Of a stretch of 52,374 nt of DNA, positions 43,232 through 52,070 are shown piece after piece. The position numbers were made by a program, and so were the translations under genes. The notes below the pieces were generated by a model. That model had not been told where the DNA came from, ran no database searches, and was given only the letters and a program-made list of their open reading frames with translations. The stretch is from Jaenimonas drosophilae. Taxonomy: Eukaryota; Euglenozoa; Kinetoplastea; Trypanosomatida; Trypanosomatidae. The DNA is taken from positions 1-52,374 of the forward strand of contig JASAON010001549.1 in NCBI GenBank assembly GCA_030849065.1, written 5' to 3'. Numbering within the stretch: position 1 is the stretch's first letter; every line of letters starts with the position of its first letter.

Positions 43232-44499
43232 TACTGCGACTGTGGGCATTATGTCCTACAGAGAGGGAATCATTATCAAGTGAATGTCCACCCCTTGATG
43301 CTTTTCACGTTTTCACGTTTTGTTTTTCAATTGTTGACCACATAATTTCCATGTTATGATTTGGTGCCATGCGAGGGCAAGCGACGGTGTCTTACAAGAG
43401 CCCCAAGATCTGACTGATTTTTTCTCTTTTGCCTTGTCTGTTGCCGTAGTGGCTCTGATTCTTTGATGGGTTGCGTCCCGCTACCATTTCCTGTGGAGTT
43501 CTCCACATTGAGAACCACTCACCCTCAAACTTGCGATGCTATCAATCCTTTGCTGCTGTTCACTTACCTGAAGACTACCATCCGCTAGGTTACTTTGAAG
43601 GTTTCCATTATCGTTAAGTGGCAGTCTAATGAAGAAGATTCACAACAAGAAACTTAGATGTGACTGCATCTGTTTTTGGTCAGCGGGGCCAAAGTGGAAT
43701 GAAACTTGCTCTACAATGGCGGTCACGTCGAAGTAGATGAAGGCTCCGAAATTACTGCTGAAGATATTCCCAACGAACGAACCCATCTGTTTTACGAGTA
43801 CTGATGGACACACAGCGAATAGCCAAACCTCTTCAGTGAAGTCCGAGTAATGGAAGCTGAGTTCAGAGATTTTCGTCTATCTCAATTGTGCTTCTACTTG
43901 TTTCCTTTCACACGGGCAACTCTTCGATATTGCCACCTACCAGCAACAACGACTCTATGTTGTTTCACCTTGGTGTTGTGGTAGCCATACCCGCGTACGC
44001 ATGTGTGCGCTCTTCTTATGCGTTTGAGCGGGTTTTCAGCCGAGTCTCAAGCAACCAGGCTGACCTCAAAGCCGTCATATCAACCTTTAGCAAACCGATG
44101 GCGTCTACGACTCAACTCCGGCTCCAAACTTCGATTTCCACCAAGCAACAGTTTGTGGTAGTCTCCCTAGTCAACATCCTCACCGTCGTACGCTCGGCTC
44201 CTTCAAGACCTTTTGAGGCAGTAGCTGATTGGTTTCACTATTCCTGGAAGTGACGACATTACCTTCAACTGTGTTGAGGTGAGTCAATCCCTCCAACTCT
44301 CTGGTAACGGCCTTCTTGTTGGGAACTGTCCGGAGCGCATAGCCTTCCACGTACGTGACGAATGGACTGATCGGTTTAGTATCTGATTCTGTGGTTGCTT
44401 CATCTTCATTTGCCAGTACGATTGTGCTTGACTTCATTCTGGAAACATAAAAAGCCGCAGATATGTAAGACCAACGTGGTGTATCTGTTTCCAATTTGA
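43232..44499. other. 1.27-kb stretch of decayed sequence
   Basis: No intact gene. A 31-codon stretch near 43707-43803 (EVDEGSEITAEDIPNERTH then LFYEY) and LLLV near 43890 faintly resemble the loop and third helix of the small membrane protein upstream. The frame at 43888-44253 may be a badly decayed N-terminal part of the receptor-cyclase pseudogene that follows, but I could not align it convincingly. I found no tRNA. Confidence 0.4.
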
Positions 44500-47266
44500 A
44501 CCAGGAGCTGTACATTTGTGCGTCGTGCCTGTACGAGCAGCTAAAGTCGACGTCTGTTGTGTGTGGTGTGGCACGTGCGCGAATGTGATTGCATCTGGAG
44601 ACAGGAACACACCACTCATGGATTATTCGCTTCAACTATATCTCCCCAACCCTATCCACGCGGTTGGGTTCTCTGCATCGGAAAACTCGATGATTGCGCT
44701 CGTATGCAATGACTATCAGGATGTTATCACGCGGCTACACAACAGCACCCTATACTGGCATCACTCCTTCCACAGATTCACAGGCGCCTGCATCAACACA
44801 GTATCCACGGCGGCGCCTGGAGCGATCACCACTTTCCAGTCCATCTACGTCATGAACACCCTGATGGGTGTATTGCCCGACAGTGTTGTCGCTACTTTGG
44901 GTACATCCAGCAGATTTGTAGTGAATGTGTTTCCACGGACCACGCAGCCAATCTGATTTACCTGTTCTCAACTTTGGAGCAGGATCTGCATGTGCTGGCG
45001 CCTTTTCTTGGTGAATCTACGCCATCGAGCTCAAAGGTGTGCGCAGTGGTCGGTTTCTCCACCGTTTCGTCCTCTATTGCCACGGTACTCTCCACGACGC
45101 TCAAGAGCGTAGAGATTGATGTGAGTACTGGTGCGGTAGTTACCGGAACGAGTGGAAGCCTGACATCAAGCATTCCAGCAGGGTGCGATTACGCCTTTCT
45201 TGTGGGACTTGCTACAGAAGATGTCGCGCTCATCTCCACCTGCCTTGGGGCTCATTCAACAGCAACAATCCTAATTACCTTTGATGACCTCACCAAGTAC
45301 TACAGCAACTTTGCAACAACCTTCACCTCAGCGAATGCAGTAACCGACCGCCTACTCTTTGCAACGAACATCCCCTCGTGGACGGCCACAACGTATGATT
45401 CCTCCGCAGCCAACGCTCAAGTTCCACTCAGCACTGTTGGTCAGTTCTTGCAGAGTGGACCACCCTATCTGCACACCCCAGCTGCGCGCGTTTCTGACTG
45501 CCATGGTGGTGGATTTCATCAGCGCGAACCCCAGTCCGGCGTACCCGACAATGAGCGGTGCACTGTATGGCAACGGCACAGTTTCGGTGGGCGATGTTGT
45601 TTTTGGTCCGTTCAGTCAAACGTGCGGATCCAGGGAGGCAGCAACATGCGTCCTGAACTTTGGTGCGCGTGACATCTCAGTGTGGTCCTACACTCGCGTT
45701 CTGCAACCAGTAGCCCCCCTGAAGTTTGATCCGACAACACCAAATGCGTTCAACATTTTGGGTAGTGGGACGCAAAGTAACATTGTGGATGGAGGGCAAG
45801 TTGCATTGGAAGGTGATGCAGATGAGCCGCTGGATTGCGTCATGTTCCATGATTGACAGCATCAGCAGCGAGCATCACAGCACTTCTCAGCACCAAGGGA
45901 GCAGCAAGTCCTCCAAGCCCACTCCCACAGAGAGTCATGCACCTGACCGCAGTTTGAAGGACTCAACATCCTCTGACCAACAAAACTCCAGCAGCGACAG
46001 CAATGTACTGGATTCTGTGCTGTATTGCCTTGTTGCTCTTGTTTGCGTGGTGGCAGTACTTCTATTGGCACTTTGGCTCTACGGACAGTGTGGATTATGC
46101 TACTGTAGGCGTGCCACGATTTGTATTCCGCCGGCTCGCATCACAAAGGCGCGACACTGGCATGAAGATGCAGCGCTTAGGGCACAAGCCAGTACCCCAT
46201 TGACCTCAATGAAACAGCTGACGGCGGTGGTGGTTGACGTGGATGGCTTTCAGGCCCTCTGGGATCGTGCACCGGTTGAGATGTCACAGTTCATGCGCAA
46301 TTATCATGATGTTGTTCGACGAGCCATCATTCGTCATCACTGCTCCGAGGCTGGTCAGATTGGCGGGTACTACGCTGTTGCCTGTGAATCTCCCTCTACC
46401 GCTTTGGCGTTGGCCTACGAAGTGGAGTCGGAGATTGTCTCTGCAATTACTACTGAACTCTGTGCCGCTCTTCCGCAGGACCCACACGGAAGGAGCTCTC
46501 CCATCACCCCTTCGCATTGGCGAACATACCATGACAGGTACAACAGTAAATGACCCTGAATTGTTTTGCATTGCTCATCGCACTGCATATGTTGCCAGGC
46601 AAGGGCACACGATGGCCACAGACGCTGTGCACAACTGTATCGAACCACCGTCTCACGCACTTCAGCTTGTGCCTGTTGGACGTCATCCAGTACTGGAGAA
46701 GAGCGGCGACGCGATGCTGGAGATTTTCGAGCATTCCGAGTTGGAGGTACGTGCTCCGTCAAAGCAGACAGACGGTGCGTATCGCAGGAGTGCCGCCATG
46801 GCTGAGCGGCAACGTGAATGCCAACACCTTGTGCAAGAATTACCTGCAAAGCCTCAATCGCGGTTGTTCCACAAACACGATAACGGTCACGTTGGAGTTT
46901 CTGTGCCAGCACTATGGCCTTGTTGTTGAGCGGGCACCATCTCTACCGGATAAGGAGTACCTATCGCTCTTGGCTGAAGCTATATCGCAGCGATTGGGTG
47001 CTATGATGGAGTACCGATACTTTTCAGTTGTGGATCTCACAACGTATGAGCCACCCAGCATCCACTCAGAGGTTCCGTATGAAGTGCTTGGTGAGAGGGG
47101 TAACCAACTGAGCGGCGTCTCCAGGATGTCGCAAGGCACGTGCCGGAGGCGGCGTTACTCTGCAAGTGCAGCGGGTTTGCGGGAGTTCCGGTACACCAAT
47201 TTGCTCAATCATTCGATGGAGACCTCTCCGTGGACACCAATGTGCCCCTTAAGTAGCTTGCTTTGA
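44500..47266 (+). pseudogene. Receptor-type adenylate cyclase-like pseudogene
   Basis: A decayed relative of the intact receptor-cyclase gene 0.8 kb downstream. Homology is clear from about 44500 (LCANL/TCANV region; LHNSTLYWHHSFHR against LANTTLYWHRSNHA) to the C-terminal helical region near 47050. The reading changes frame at about 44945, 45490, 45850, 46500 and 46790, so at least five frame breaks separate the pieces. Recognisable parts in order are the second half of the ligand-binding ectodomain, the SWSYTRV-like end of the ectodomain, a membrane helix (YCLVALVCVVAVLLLALWLY, near 46015-46080) and a cyclase domain beginning VVVDVDGFQALW. The first metal-site Asp is kept, but the second site reads IGGYY, so that Asp is absent. 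The N-terminal half of the ectodomain is missing or unrecognisable. It should not give a functional receptor. Confidence 0.8.
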
Positions 47267-48077: not shown

Positions 48078-51000
48078 ATGTCTCCACCATGGTGCAGTTG
48101 GAGTTTGATGTGTGCCATACTGCTTGTGCTTAATGCCCAAGTACTTACTGCTCAGGACCGAAGGTATGTCGTTGCGGGCTACCTCTCAGAGTCAGGACTT
48201 CTAACGACGTCAGTGAGTAGCTACGTCATAGGCCTGTCTTCAGCTCTCTCTTATAACCATGTCGCTGCGGATGTGTCGTACTCTGCCATAGTGGTAGGTA
48301 CTGGCAGGGGGGGCGGCTTTATGATGTACTCTTCCGGCGCTATGGATCCAAGTGCTGTGGCATTCTTCGGCCCTGGTGGACGTGCGGTGATGTCCAACAT
48401 CATCTTGAGCATTGGTGATCTTGCGTTGGCCTGCTTTGCCCCCTTTGCACAGACACAGACAGCGCGTCCCTCCTTTTCCGCCTATCAAGATCAGGTGTAC
48501 TGGACGCTCCCGTCAACCCAGGCACAAGGAGTGGGGCTCCTCCACCATCTCTCTCTGCGGGACCTGTACCCACTGCAGCAGCTCGTCACTCGTAGTAATG
48601 GATTCTCTCTTGTTGGGGGAAGCCTCTTTCAACTCGTGATGGCTGCTGCCCCTGCGTTGGGTGTGACGGAGATGTCCACAAGTTTGTACGAGAAGGGTTC
48701 CACTGTCAGGAGAATTGCACGCAGCAAGATTCGCATACTGTATCAGAGTACCCATGCCGATGACGACGCACCCGGCGCCATTACTGAGCTGATTTCCTCA
48801 TCGGTCCTCATCGATCTCAATACGTCGTTGGCCACGACGGTGGAGCTCGCGTACATGACCGTAGAGCTGTTCAAGACTGCAGCCGCCAGTGGAGATGTAC
48901 TCCCTCCCGAGAACATCATCATTTCAATGCCTGTGCCTGGCATTGACTCCACGGAGTACGTGGCTTCTCAGGAGTTCGTCCAGCAGGCGAGCGGCCACCT
49001 TAACTCCTTGACGTTGGTGGAGAAGATGCTTATGATGGCTGGTTGGGCGAGCGGGCGTGCCCTGCTGCATGCAATGAATATGTACACGGGAGAAGTGCTC
49101 ACAGAAAAGGCCATCTTCTACAACAACCTCCTGGCGGCCCAGTCAAGCTTCTTGGTGAGTGACTTGTATATTGGGTCGTTTGGTTCATCCAATTGCCCAG
49201 CAGCTACTGCAATCTCTCAAGGAGCGGTATGCAAGTGCCACGCCGGGGGCAACAACATGTGGTTTCACTCCCTTGTAAAGATTGGAATGTCCTATGACAT
49301 AACCTCACTCCCTGGGGGACTGTTTCAGTATGGCCTCGGGTTGTGCGCCAATCTCCGCGCGGACGGTGACGACAACTTTGCGACACCAAACACAATGCAT
49401 CAGCTTCTTGAGCTACCTCGAACGGTTCATTTGGTTGGAATGAGCCCATCTGACAATGTCATGGTGTCTTCTGTTTGCAGCCAAGTCCATCGTACGATGC
49501 ACAGACTGGCGAATACGACTCTGTACTGGCACCGCTCTAACCATGCAGTACGGGGCTACTGTAAGCAAACAACCATGAGAACAGCAAGTGAAGATATCAA
49601 AGCACACGAGGAGACTTACGTGACAACGTCGTTGATGGGTGTTATTCCAGATGGAATCTTGACGTCAGCTGCACCAAAAACACTTATTCTTGACTTTATG
49701 CCGCAAACCACGCAATCTCACATATCCAAGGCTAACTACGTGTACCTCTTTCCGACGTTGGAGCAGGAACTTAGTGTGTTGGCATACTACCTTTCCGGGG
49801 TGGTGACGGATGCATCGACTGTGTGCGGTGTTGTTCGCCGCTCCGCAACGTCGGATGCAACTGCCAGCCTTGTGAGAAGCACTCTCGTGTACTTTGGAAT
49901 GGACGTGTCTGCTGAACATCTACAGCAGCCTGCAGATGACCTTGGTGCCAACATTCCATTTGGGTGTACGCACACTGTGGTGATTGGCATGACAGAAGGT
50001 GATGCTTCTGGGCTGCTAGCATACCTTAAGGGGCATTCAACGGGAGTACTTCTCGTGTCATTTGATGACGTAACAAAGCTGTACGCGTCCATCTACACAT
50101 CCTTTCACGGTGAGAAATCTTCCGTGACGGATCGGCTGGTCTTTGCAACGAACCTGCCCACGTGGACCGGGCCAACGCTATCTGCCAGTGAAGTCAGCCA
50201 GGCTGCATGGCTATCCACTGTGCCGGAGTTTGTGCAGACGCTGCCACCTTTGGAACAGACGCCTGCAGCTGCTCGTACCTTCATTGTGGCCATGGTGTAC
50301 GATCTACTGACGAGGGGTACGCAGTGGGGCCACTCGGACTTACTTGCTGCCCTTTATGGCAATGTGACGGTACGGGCTGGTGGCATGACCTTTGGACCCT
50401 TCACCACGACGTGGGGCGGAAACAGGAAGATTGTGAAAAACTATGGAGCGCAAGATATTGCTGTTTGGTCCTACACACGAGTGAAGGAACCATCGACGGA
50501 GCTGCTGGCACCTCCGAAAACTCCGTGGCTAGACGTCGATGCTGTTGCTGCTGCTGCTGCTGTTTCTACGAGCAGGCTTCCAGTTAATGTGGCATTGCTG
50601 GAGCAAGGTGGCCGAGCTTCTTCTTCTGAAGAGGACTGCGTTGAGCTTCAAGCTTCGTCGAGTAAGCTGGAGGGGCAAACAGTCTTATTGAAGTCAGGCG
50701 GCAGCGCCTCTCCGATAACCAATGCTACCAGTTCTTCATCACGTGAGACAGCGGATGTATCGACGGATTCAACAGCACTCTGGTCACTGTTGTATGCCGT
50801 GGCTACGCTGCTGATGCTGGTTTTGCTGTACATTGTGCTGCTGCTAATGTGGACTGGATCATGGAACCGGGATGACAGGTGTGCTTCATCCGTCGTGTGG
50901 TGTGGAAAGAAGAGTTCAACAACAACACCTCAGTCTGCAGCTGCGAAGATACGCGCGCAGATGGGCTTGGAGGCCCGCCAAGACCGTGAGCTGCAACACA

Positions 51001-52070
51001 AGGCACGTGATTCTTGTCGAGCTCCACACGACTCTGCTGGGATTCTCACTGTTGTCTATGTTGAGGTGGAGCAGTGGCGTCCACTGTGGGTGCGTCAGTC
51101 TCGGGTGATGTCACGTGCCGTTCGGCACTATCACCGTTGTGTACGACATGCGGTGATTCGGCATGAGTGCTATGAGATGGAGTCCGTGGAAGGTATGTTT
51201 GTTGTGGCGTGCCCGTCGGCGAGCGTTGGCGTGCAGCTTGGTCGTGATGTCATCACAAAAGTTGCCCGACTGACGAAGCGTGATGCGGACGTTCTCGCCG
51301 AGGAGTACAACAATTTTGGTTACCGTGGAGGGCCAGTTACTGGTCTTCGTGTACGTGTTGCCGTTCATGTGGGCAGAGCAGAGCAGATGGCTGATGTGGG
51401 TGGAAGAGTGCGGTGGAGTGGTGCCGCGATCGATGACGCCGTTTGTGCTGCCCACGTTGCTGGAAGTGCTGGTCTCATTGTCTTCACGGAAGGTGTGACA
51501 CGAGAGGTGAATGATGTGGAGGGCCAATCATCTCTGGGCTTTCACTCGTTGGGCTACCGAGGAACGGAGGAGCTCTTTTGTCAGCAAGTGTTACCTTTGG
51601 CTGCAAACTCTTCCGATGTCACGCCTCAGCGTGGGGAAACTGATGTCAGCATTGCGTTGGCCACGCTGAGTGGTACGGCGGATGACCTCTTAAGAGCAAA
51701 GTGTGCAGCCCAGCTTGAGGCACATTATGCAGGCGTGCATGAAGAGGAGCGCATTGCAGACCTCCAGTGCTTGTGCCATCTCTCTGGCGTCTCCGATGCA
51801 CCTCATAACTTGAATTCCAACCGTCATTGCTACTACCTTGCATTGCGCGATGGAATGAGTTGCCACCTTGCAGCACTGAGTGACTGCCATCATGGAGTAT
51901 CTCGAGCGGAGCGGATTCTCGCACGCGCATCCACGGTAACCCAGGAAAGCCCTCTCGGCCATATGACAAGCAGCAGATTCTTTGGACGAACCTCTCGCAA
52001 CACATTTCGACGTACATCAAAACGACGACTTGTGCACTTTGCCTATGCGCGAAGTGAGGACGATGCTTGA
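48078..52070 (+). CDS. Receptor-type adenylate cyclase-like protein with degenerate cyclase domain
   Basis: A 1330-residue type I membrane protein with the layout of trypanosomatid receptor adenylate cyclases (ESAG4/GRESAG4). It has a signal peptide (MSPPWCSWSLMCAILLVLNA, cleaved near TAQ at about 26), a large periplasmic-binding-protein-like ectodomain to about 900, one membrane helix (about 902-927) and an intracellular class III cyclase-like domain from about 988. Key catalytic residues look lost. The usual TDIES reads VEVEQ (Glu996 in place of the first metal Asp). The usual VGDSF reads VEGMF (Gly1039 in place of the second Asp). The PNMAAR element that holds the transition-state Asn and Arg reads roughly AIDDAV. 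An Ala run near 825 comes from a GCT repeat. The protein is probably a pseudoenzyme receptor or needs a catalytic partner. The start follows the splice site at 47983. Confidence 0.85.
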   Translation: MSPPWCSWSLMCAILLVLNAQVLTAQDRRYVVAGYLSESGLLTTSVSSYVIGLSSALSYNHVAADVSYSAIVVGTGRGGGFMMYSSGAMDPSAVAFFGPGGRAVMSNIILSIGDLALACFAPFAQTQTARPSFSAYQDQVYWTLPSTQAQGVGLLHHLSLRDLYPLQQLVTRSNGFSLVGGSLFQLVMAAAPALGVTEMSTSLYEKGSTVRRIARSKIRILYQSTHADDDAPGAITELISSSVLIDLNTSLATTVELAYMTVELFKTAAASGDVLPPENIIISMPVPGIDSTEYVASQEFVQQASGHLNSLTLVEKMLMMAGWASGRALLHAMNMYTGEVLTEKAIFYNNLLAAQSSFLVSDLYIGSFGSSNCPAATAISQGAVCKCHAGGNNMWFHSLVKIGMSYDITSLPGGLFQYGLGLCANLRADGDDNFATPNTMHQLLELPRTVHLVGMSPSDNVMVSSVCSQVHRTMHRLANTTLYWHRSNHAVRGYCKQTTMRTASEDIKAHEETYVTTSLMGVIPDGILTSAAPKTLILDFMPQTTQSHISKANYVYLFPTLEQELSVLAYYLSGVVTDASTVCGVVRRSATSDATASLVRSTLVYFGMDVSAEHLQQPADDLGANIPFGCTHTVVIGMTEGDASGLLAYLKGHSTGVLLVSFDDVTKLYASIYTSFHGEKSSVTDRLVFATNLPTWTGPTLSASEVSQAAWLSTVPEFVQTLPPLEQTPAAARTFIVAMVYDLLTRGTQWGHSDLLAALYGNVTVRAGGMTFGPFTTTWGGNRKIVKNYGAQDIAVWSYTRVKEPSTELLAPPKTPWLDVDAVAAAAAVSTSRLPVNVALLEQGGRASSSEEDCVELQASSSKLEGQTVLLKSGGSASPITNATSSSSRETADVSTDSTALWSLLYAVATLLMLVLLYIVLLLMWTGSWNRDDRCASSVVWCGKKSSTTTPQSAAAKIRAQMGLEARQDRELQHKARDSCRAPHDSAGILTVVYVEVEQWRPLWVRQSRVMSRAVRHYHRCVRHAVIRHECYEMESVEGMFVVACPSASVGVQLGRDVITKVARLTKRDADVLAEEYNNFGYRGGPVTGLRVRVAVHVGRAEQMADVGGRVRWSGAAIDDAVCAAHVAGSAGLIVFTEGVTREVNDVEGQSSLGFHSLGYRGTEELFCQQVLPLAANSSDVTPQRGETDVSIALATLSGTADDLLRAKCAAQLEAHYAGVHEEERIADLQCLCHLSGVSDAPHNLNSNRHCYYLALRDGMSCHLAALSDCHHGVSRAERILARASTVTQESPLGHMTSSRFFGRTSRNTFRRTSKRRLVHFAYARSEDDA

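Follow-up and report, generated by a model that had tools for sequence, protein, structure and literature searches.

The gene described here lies at positions 48078..52070 on the forward strand of a 52,374-base stretch of DNA from the trypanosomatid Jaenimonas drosophilae (JASAON010001549.1, GCA_030849065.1; C258 below), which is one whole contig of a genome assembly of 18.8 Mb in 370 contigs and is referred to as the window. Judged by its closest relatives and the order of its parts, it is by descent a trypanosomatid receptor-type adenylate cyclase (GRESAG4-like), with an intact reading frame and with every catalytic position of its cyclase-like domain replaced. The reading favored here, to which a probability of roughly 60% is assigned, is that the protein would be a surface receptor that no longer makes cyclic AMP (cAMP) and in which the cyclase fold has been kept as a protein-protein module, serving in dimerization or docking. 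On comparison with its paralogues the gene is typical of a large receptor repertoire that is for the most part degenerate, and this repertoire is the point that deserves attention.

The open reading frame starts with the ATG at 48078 and closes with a stop codon ending at 52070, comprising 1330 codons with no internal stops, and its identity was established from the frame itself, Pfam, phmmer and a search of the genome. A hydrophobic start resembling a signal peptide is predicted from hydropathy at residues ∼1–25 (48078..48152). It is followed by a first ectodomain half without a Pfam match (residues 26–446, 48153..49415), which by analogy with Trypanosoma brucei cyclases, as described in available portions of PMC6027212, may be a first Venus flytrap, and then by the A-cyclase periplasmic-binding-protein-like domain PF25493 (residues 447–818, 49416..50531), matched by Pfam with an expectation value (E) of 1.8e-60. 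A single membrane helix, also placed by hydropathy (residues ∼903–925, 50784..50852; best 19-residue mean 2.82), separates the ectodomain from a catalytically degenerate class III cyclase homology domain at residues 982–1167 (51021..51578), which was delimited with phmmer, MAFFT, a profile and hhalign. The Pfam cyclase family PF00211 finds no match in the protein up to E 1, and the delta-subdomain stretch is 8 residues long against 20, 28 and 28 in paralogues L035, L036 and L038. The best solved relatives found by phmmer are T. brucei GRESAG4.3 (1fx4, E 1.7e-10) and GRESAG4.1 (E 2.9e-08). In a set of 5.8 billion proteins, the 7984 top word-sharing candidates were scored and none reached E ≤0.001; kinetoplastid proteins seem to be absent from that set, and the result therefore carries no information on rarity.

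The class III active site is shared between two domains, of which one gives two metal-binding Asp residues and the other gives Lys, Asp, Asn and Arg. In an alignment of 54 domains from this genome all six positions are replaced in the focal domain. Glu996 (51063..51065) stands at the first metal Asp and Gly1039 (51192..51194) at the second; the MAFFT alignment of the same domains places Glu1035 (51180..51182) at the adenine-side Lys and Arg1112 (51411..51413) at the adenine-side Asp. The Asn/Arg transition-state element falls at Asp1119 to Cys1123 (51432..51446) in a register uncertain by one residue, reading Asp1119/Cys1123 by MAFFT and Asp1120/Ala1124 by hidden Markov model (HMM) alignment, and Asn/Arg in neither. 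Four alignments (phmmer, iterated HMM, MAFFT and hhalign) agree on the placement of Glu996 and Gly1039, neither of which has an adjacent Asp. In the phmmer alignment to 1fx4 and 1fx2, Glu996 is paired with the Asp in FTDIE and Gly1039 with that in VGDSF. A profile of 13 domains of the type found in the window matches 1fx4 with a total E of 1.7e-15 and reaches the later part of the domain, the second stretch being weak when taken alone. With hhalign, the same 13 domains align to six reference domains of this genome (L035–L040, of which five keep all six catalytic residues and L036 lacks the Asn and the Arg) with probability 99.1 and E 8.3e-19 over 170 columns. A misplaced alignment of the metal sites was considered and rejected on the agreement of four methods. 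The preliminary description of this gene, which had reported an intact frame with signal peptide, ectodomain and membrane helix, both metal-site aspartates replaced and the Asn/Arg element apparently lost, is borne out in each of these respects; profile alignment to GRESAG4 and other class III cyclases puts neither aspartate elsewhere in the domain. On residue content there is no working class III site, and with high confidence the protein is predicted not to be a working class III cyclase.

In a tree of the 54 domains the focal gene pairs with L002 (support 96/84) inside a 14-member clade (99/97) that carries the Glu/Gly pair throughout. The tree was meant to exclude three motif columns, with the column numbering taken as starting at 1. 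The clade is nested in a set of 27 rows (93/90), none of which has the second metal Asp, and in a separate group of nine rows (99/93) the first site is Glu and the second Asp is kept. The minimum number of changes on the tree is four at the second metal site and five at the first. Since the other two Glu/Gly rows, L021 and L024, lie outside the clade, the pair arose more than once. In the focal lineage the order of events would most simply be loss of the second Asp and, later, replacement of the first by Glu. Six residues, Glu996, Trp1000, Arg1001, Glu1038, Gly1039 and Cys1045, are fixed in all 14 clade members and are absent at these positions from all six reference domains; the newly conserved residues of the clade include the motifs E...WR.LW and EG. 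At least 13 of the 14 members are identical at 35 columns. The old active site thus appears to be a new conserved site; after loss of catalysis, drift alone would not be expected to bring new residues to fixation there; a new role in packing or binding would account for them.

Selection was assessed on paralogues within one genome, not on orthologues, from the ratio of nonsynonymous to synonymous substitution rates (dN and dS). For the cyclase-like domain of the 14-member clade (159 codons) dN/dS is 0.196, with a log-likelihood (lnL) of −6082.0 against −6308.2 for a ratio of 1. Given its own ratio, the focal branch has a domain dN/dS of 0.067 and a ratio of 1 is rejected (lnL −6079.6 against −6092.7; twice the difference, 2ΔlnL, 26.3), the gain over one common ratio being small (2ΔlnL 4.8). 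The ectodomain (12 genes, 828 codons; the optimizer stopped at 10 iterations in these fits) gives 0.269 overall and 0.218 on the focal branch, where 1 is rejected with a 2ΔlnL of 69. Other degenerate groups have domain ratios of 0.234, 0.225 and 0.299, compared with 0.121 for globin cyclases and 0.054 for the least degenerate receptor-type genes L035, L036 and L038, and in each a ratio of 1 fits worse. Without selection, mutation would be expected to break the frame early: in simulations with point mutations placed at random, at 0.05 substitutions per site, the frame acquired a mean of 6.6 stops, with at least two in every run and none of 100 frames intact. This result, together with the fixation of residues in 14 of 14 clade members, indicates that the observation is more than chance. 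A decaying pseudogene was rejected on the open frame and on dN/dS. By these estimates the focal cyclase-like domain is under purifying selection, and the protein is very probably kept for a role other than cAMP synthesis. The selection anticipated in the preliminary description is thus found, on paralogues in place of the orthologues that it had named.

The same description had regarded the gene as an unusual member of its family, and in this genome the opposite holds. PF25493 has 94 matches in the genome, fragments included, and PF00211 has 33. A genome search with the focal protein returns 37 matching rows including its own, the nearest full gene being L002 (contig C59) at 53% identity, and 27 loci including the focal one have open frames of 1325–1473 codons (one, L033, holds N). 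The 54 aligned domains were drawn by similarity to the focal protein and to PF00211, so that the proportions among them are not those of a full census. Their metal-site pairs are Glu/Gly in 16, Asp/Asp, Asp/Gly and Glu/Asp in 10 each, Asp/Ser in 2, and Asn/Gly, Gln/Gly, Ser/Asp, Asp/Thr, Thr/Lys and Ser/Gly once each. Six rows without a PF25493 match at their locus are not of the receptor type, namely the globin cyclases L037, L039 and L040 and the DUF1935 proteins L044, L056 and L063 (assigned by Pfam in all except L040). Among the 48 receptor-type domains, at least one metal Asp is lost in 42 and both in 20; both are kept in six, the Glu/Gly pair is found in 16, and the full six-residue catalytic set survives only in L035 and L038. 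Before the domain search, L027 (broken) and L057, L061 and L062 (repeats of other loci) were dropped from 63 loci; L023, L025 and L031, whose frames each reach a contig end, have no domain, and L042, whose domain falls into two pieces, and L034, which is distant and partial, stand outside the alignment. Of 22 further loci, 21 have a domain match at E 0.001, several of them weak with unsure columns; both metal Asp are retained in two (L064 and L078) and the complete set of six residues in none. Five of these 21 were added to give a set of 59 domains.

Several other architectures were observed in the course of this survey. L044, L056 and L063 carry a cyclase-like domain followed by DUF1935, without a receptor ectodomain, and L035 combines receptor ectodomain, cyclase domain and DUF1935. 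The long genes L064 and L078 (contig C368), whose domain scores are equal, retain both metal Asp together with the Arg and have lost the Lys, Asp and Asn (DRDRDR); they are possibly of a one-sided, C1-like type. On contigs C222 (L058, L066–L072, L085), C68 (L073–L076) and C79 (L059, L079, L080) there are adjoining PF25493 frames, mostly of ∼650–880 codons, in which the cyclase-like domain is degenerate to barely recognizable and in L066 is not found. Globin-coupled cyclases lie on C47 (L037, L040, L042) and C155 (L039), with the globin shown for L037 and L039; the locus of L042 holds N and its domain match is in two pieces. The presence of globin cyclases speaks against an origin in the genus Trypanosoma if, as Durante 2020 is reported to state, they are lost in that genus.

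Under the favored reading, the ectodomain would still sense or bind something outside the cell and the cyclase-homology domain would be retained as a protein-protein module. Paired with an active receptor cyclase, it would leave both shared sites incomplete, so that the partner may be silenced or tied up; paired only with its own kind, it may serve as a receptor on which cytoplasmic partners dock. Both metal Asp are present in 12 of the 59 domains and the Lys/Asp/Asn/Arg set in five, and the second set without the first in none, so that no member of this set would complete a site with the focal domain. Complementary C1/C2 halves were considered and rejected: no clear C2-like half is present among the 59, and a candidate admitted under relaxed terms, L063, lacks the Asn and is not of the receptor type. 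Because no such half is found and the focal domain lacks both halves of the site, no catalytic C1/C2-style pairing is expected, and for the latter reason a dimer with an active cyclase should be silent. Of the two alternatives in the preliminary description, a non-enzymatic receptor or a dimer partner, either may apply, as a docking role or a silencing pair. The silencing heterodimer in particular is given slightly less than an even chance. According to the portions of PMC9481589 available, different receptor cyclase isoforms of T. brucei co-purify, binding of CARP3 needs the receptor cyclase catalytic domain, some isoforms restrain and others promote social motility, and dominant-negative receptor cyclase heterodimers are discussed by the authors; available portions of PMC6027212 describe a transient cytokinesis block on overexpression of ESAG4 mutants. 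These findings serve as precedents and are not data on the focal protein.

Several results weigh against this reading or against the strength of its support. In the four degenerate groups dN/dS (0.196–0.299) is ∼3.6–5.5 times the value for L035/L036/L038 (0.054), indicating that the constraint is real but looser. The closest pair, L003/L004, has a domain ratio of 0.461 with a 2ΔlnL of only 4.6 against 1, and its domain dS is 0.13 against an ectodomain dS of 1.02, indicating that cytoplasmic cyclase halves have been exchanged between genes; such exchange breaks the assumption of a single tree. For the domain, the focal branch approaches saturation (dS 1.1–2.7; pairwise to L002 8.0). With only L035 and L038 intact among 48, there would be few targets for ∼40 silencers, an imbalance that fits docking as well. 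Finally, a single-sequence AlphaFold2 model of the focal domain is poor (mean pLDDT, the model's own confidence score, 46.2) and is not used as evidence; a Foldseek search with it has 1fx4 as its top match at E 0.091, and none of 303 matches reaches E 0.001.

The looser constraint on degenerate groups is also what would be seen if the ectodomain, as a surface ligand binder, adhesin or antigen, were the selected part, with the cyclase-like half tolerated only as an anchor or tail. The match to the ectodomain family is much stronger than that to the cyclase domain, and the arrays on C222, C68 and C79 pair an ectodomain with a very degenerate cyclase-like domain; however, in the focal clade the cyclase-like domain has a lower dN/dS (0.196) than the ectodomain (0.269) and has acquired new invariant residues, and this explanation is considered unlikely. 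The exchange of cyclase halves in L003/L004 would likewise fit a gene conversion archive, as in other variable surface families, in which exchange and not function keeps frames open, and such an archive could include the broken copy adjoining the focal gene as well as the broken copy on C160 that is 84% identical in DNA to the focal gene over part of the coding sequence. This account, judged still less probable, has to be set against a focal-branch dN/dS well below 1 in both halves, the fixation of residues at the former active site across the clade, and the 27 loci, the focal one included, with long open frames. It is very improbable that the protein remains active as a nucleotide cyclase, or as some other enzyme that binds nucleotides, through a rebuilt site with the metal held by Glu996. 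In favor of this, an Asp-to-Glu change at the first metal site is a conservative one and is found in unconnected parts of the tree, and Glu996 is invariant in the clade; against it, none of the other five catalytic residues (the second Asp and the Lys, Asp, Asn and Arg) is retained, and PF00211 does not match the focal protein up to E 1.

The many receptor cyclases of trypanosomatids are commonly viewed as a range of sensors that all feed into a single messenger. With at least one metal Asp lost in 42 of 48 receptor-type domains and the tested groups under purifying selection, cAMP synthesis may not be how a large part of such a repertoire signals. A wider proposal, advanced tentatively and at somewhat under even odds, is that in this organism one clade after another of the family has been converted to receptors that work independently of cAMP. 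Dozens of Venus-flytrap receptors would then use a catalytically dead cyclase fold, with newly conserved residues, for docking or silencing, and the full catalytic set survives in just two of the receptor-type genes identified here. Counts of receptor cyclases taken from annotation can accordingly overstate the capacity for cAMP synthesis, and the genome may provide a naturally occurring collection of dead receptors on which to test the T. brucei heterodimer model discussed in the available portions of PMC9481589. In titles and the opening parts of abstracts, a scope that does not include the main survey (Durante 2020), no report of catalytically dead trypanosomatid receptor cyclases was found.

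Within the window the longer open frames are mostly on the minus strand up to ∼35 kb and on the plus strand beyond, and such grouping by strand is typical of kinetoplastid gene clusters. Spliced-leader patterns had no match. Pfam matches were obtained in nine of ten neighboring frames scanned, and include inorganic pyrophosphatase, Sec15, NIF3, seryl-tRNA synthetase, protein kinase, SNF2 helicase and a DnaJ protein. Just upstream of the focal gene, on the same strand, lies a broken tandem receptor-cyclase copy (44189..46619), with PF25493 and PF00211 pieces in three frames; its cyclase piece has Asp at the first metal site and Gly at the second. This copy has lost its frame and the adjoining focal copy has not. 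Another broken copy, L027 (C160:26888-31089), is 84% identical in DNA to the focal gene over coding positions 956–2438, with lower or no identity elsewhere, and is thus a mosaic.

Among known systems, the focal protein most resembles T. brucei ESAG4/GRESAG4 (1fx2, 1fx4), with which it shares the order of signal, large ectodomain, one helix and class III domain and the ectodomain family PF25493, and which supplies the closest solved relatives of its cyclase-like domain; it differs in having all six catalytic positions replaced and the delta-subdomain stretch cut to 8 residues. The globin-coupled cyclases of the same genome on C47 and C155, presumably those known as OAC and HemAC, have a class III domain that belongs to this wider family, whereas a globin takes the place of the receptor ectodomain (L037, L039) and all six residues are kept in L037, L039 and L040. 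The C1 and C2 halves of mammalian adenylyl cyclase are cyclase folds that lack a full site of their own and are used in a dimer, as may be the case for the focal domain. C2 keeps the base and transition-state residues, whereas the focal domain keeps neither residue set. Within trypanosomatids, dead paralogues that act as regulators are described in available portions of reports on the S-adenosylmethionine decarboxylase (AdoMetDC) prozyme (PMC5201418) and a deoxyhypusine synthase paralogue (PMC3663545), and there too a dead enzyme copy is kept beside active ones. Those paralogues activate their partners, whereas the focal domain has neither half of the site and activation by complementation is not expected of it; and they are single genes, whereas the dead receptor cyclases described here form a large gene set.

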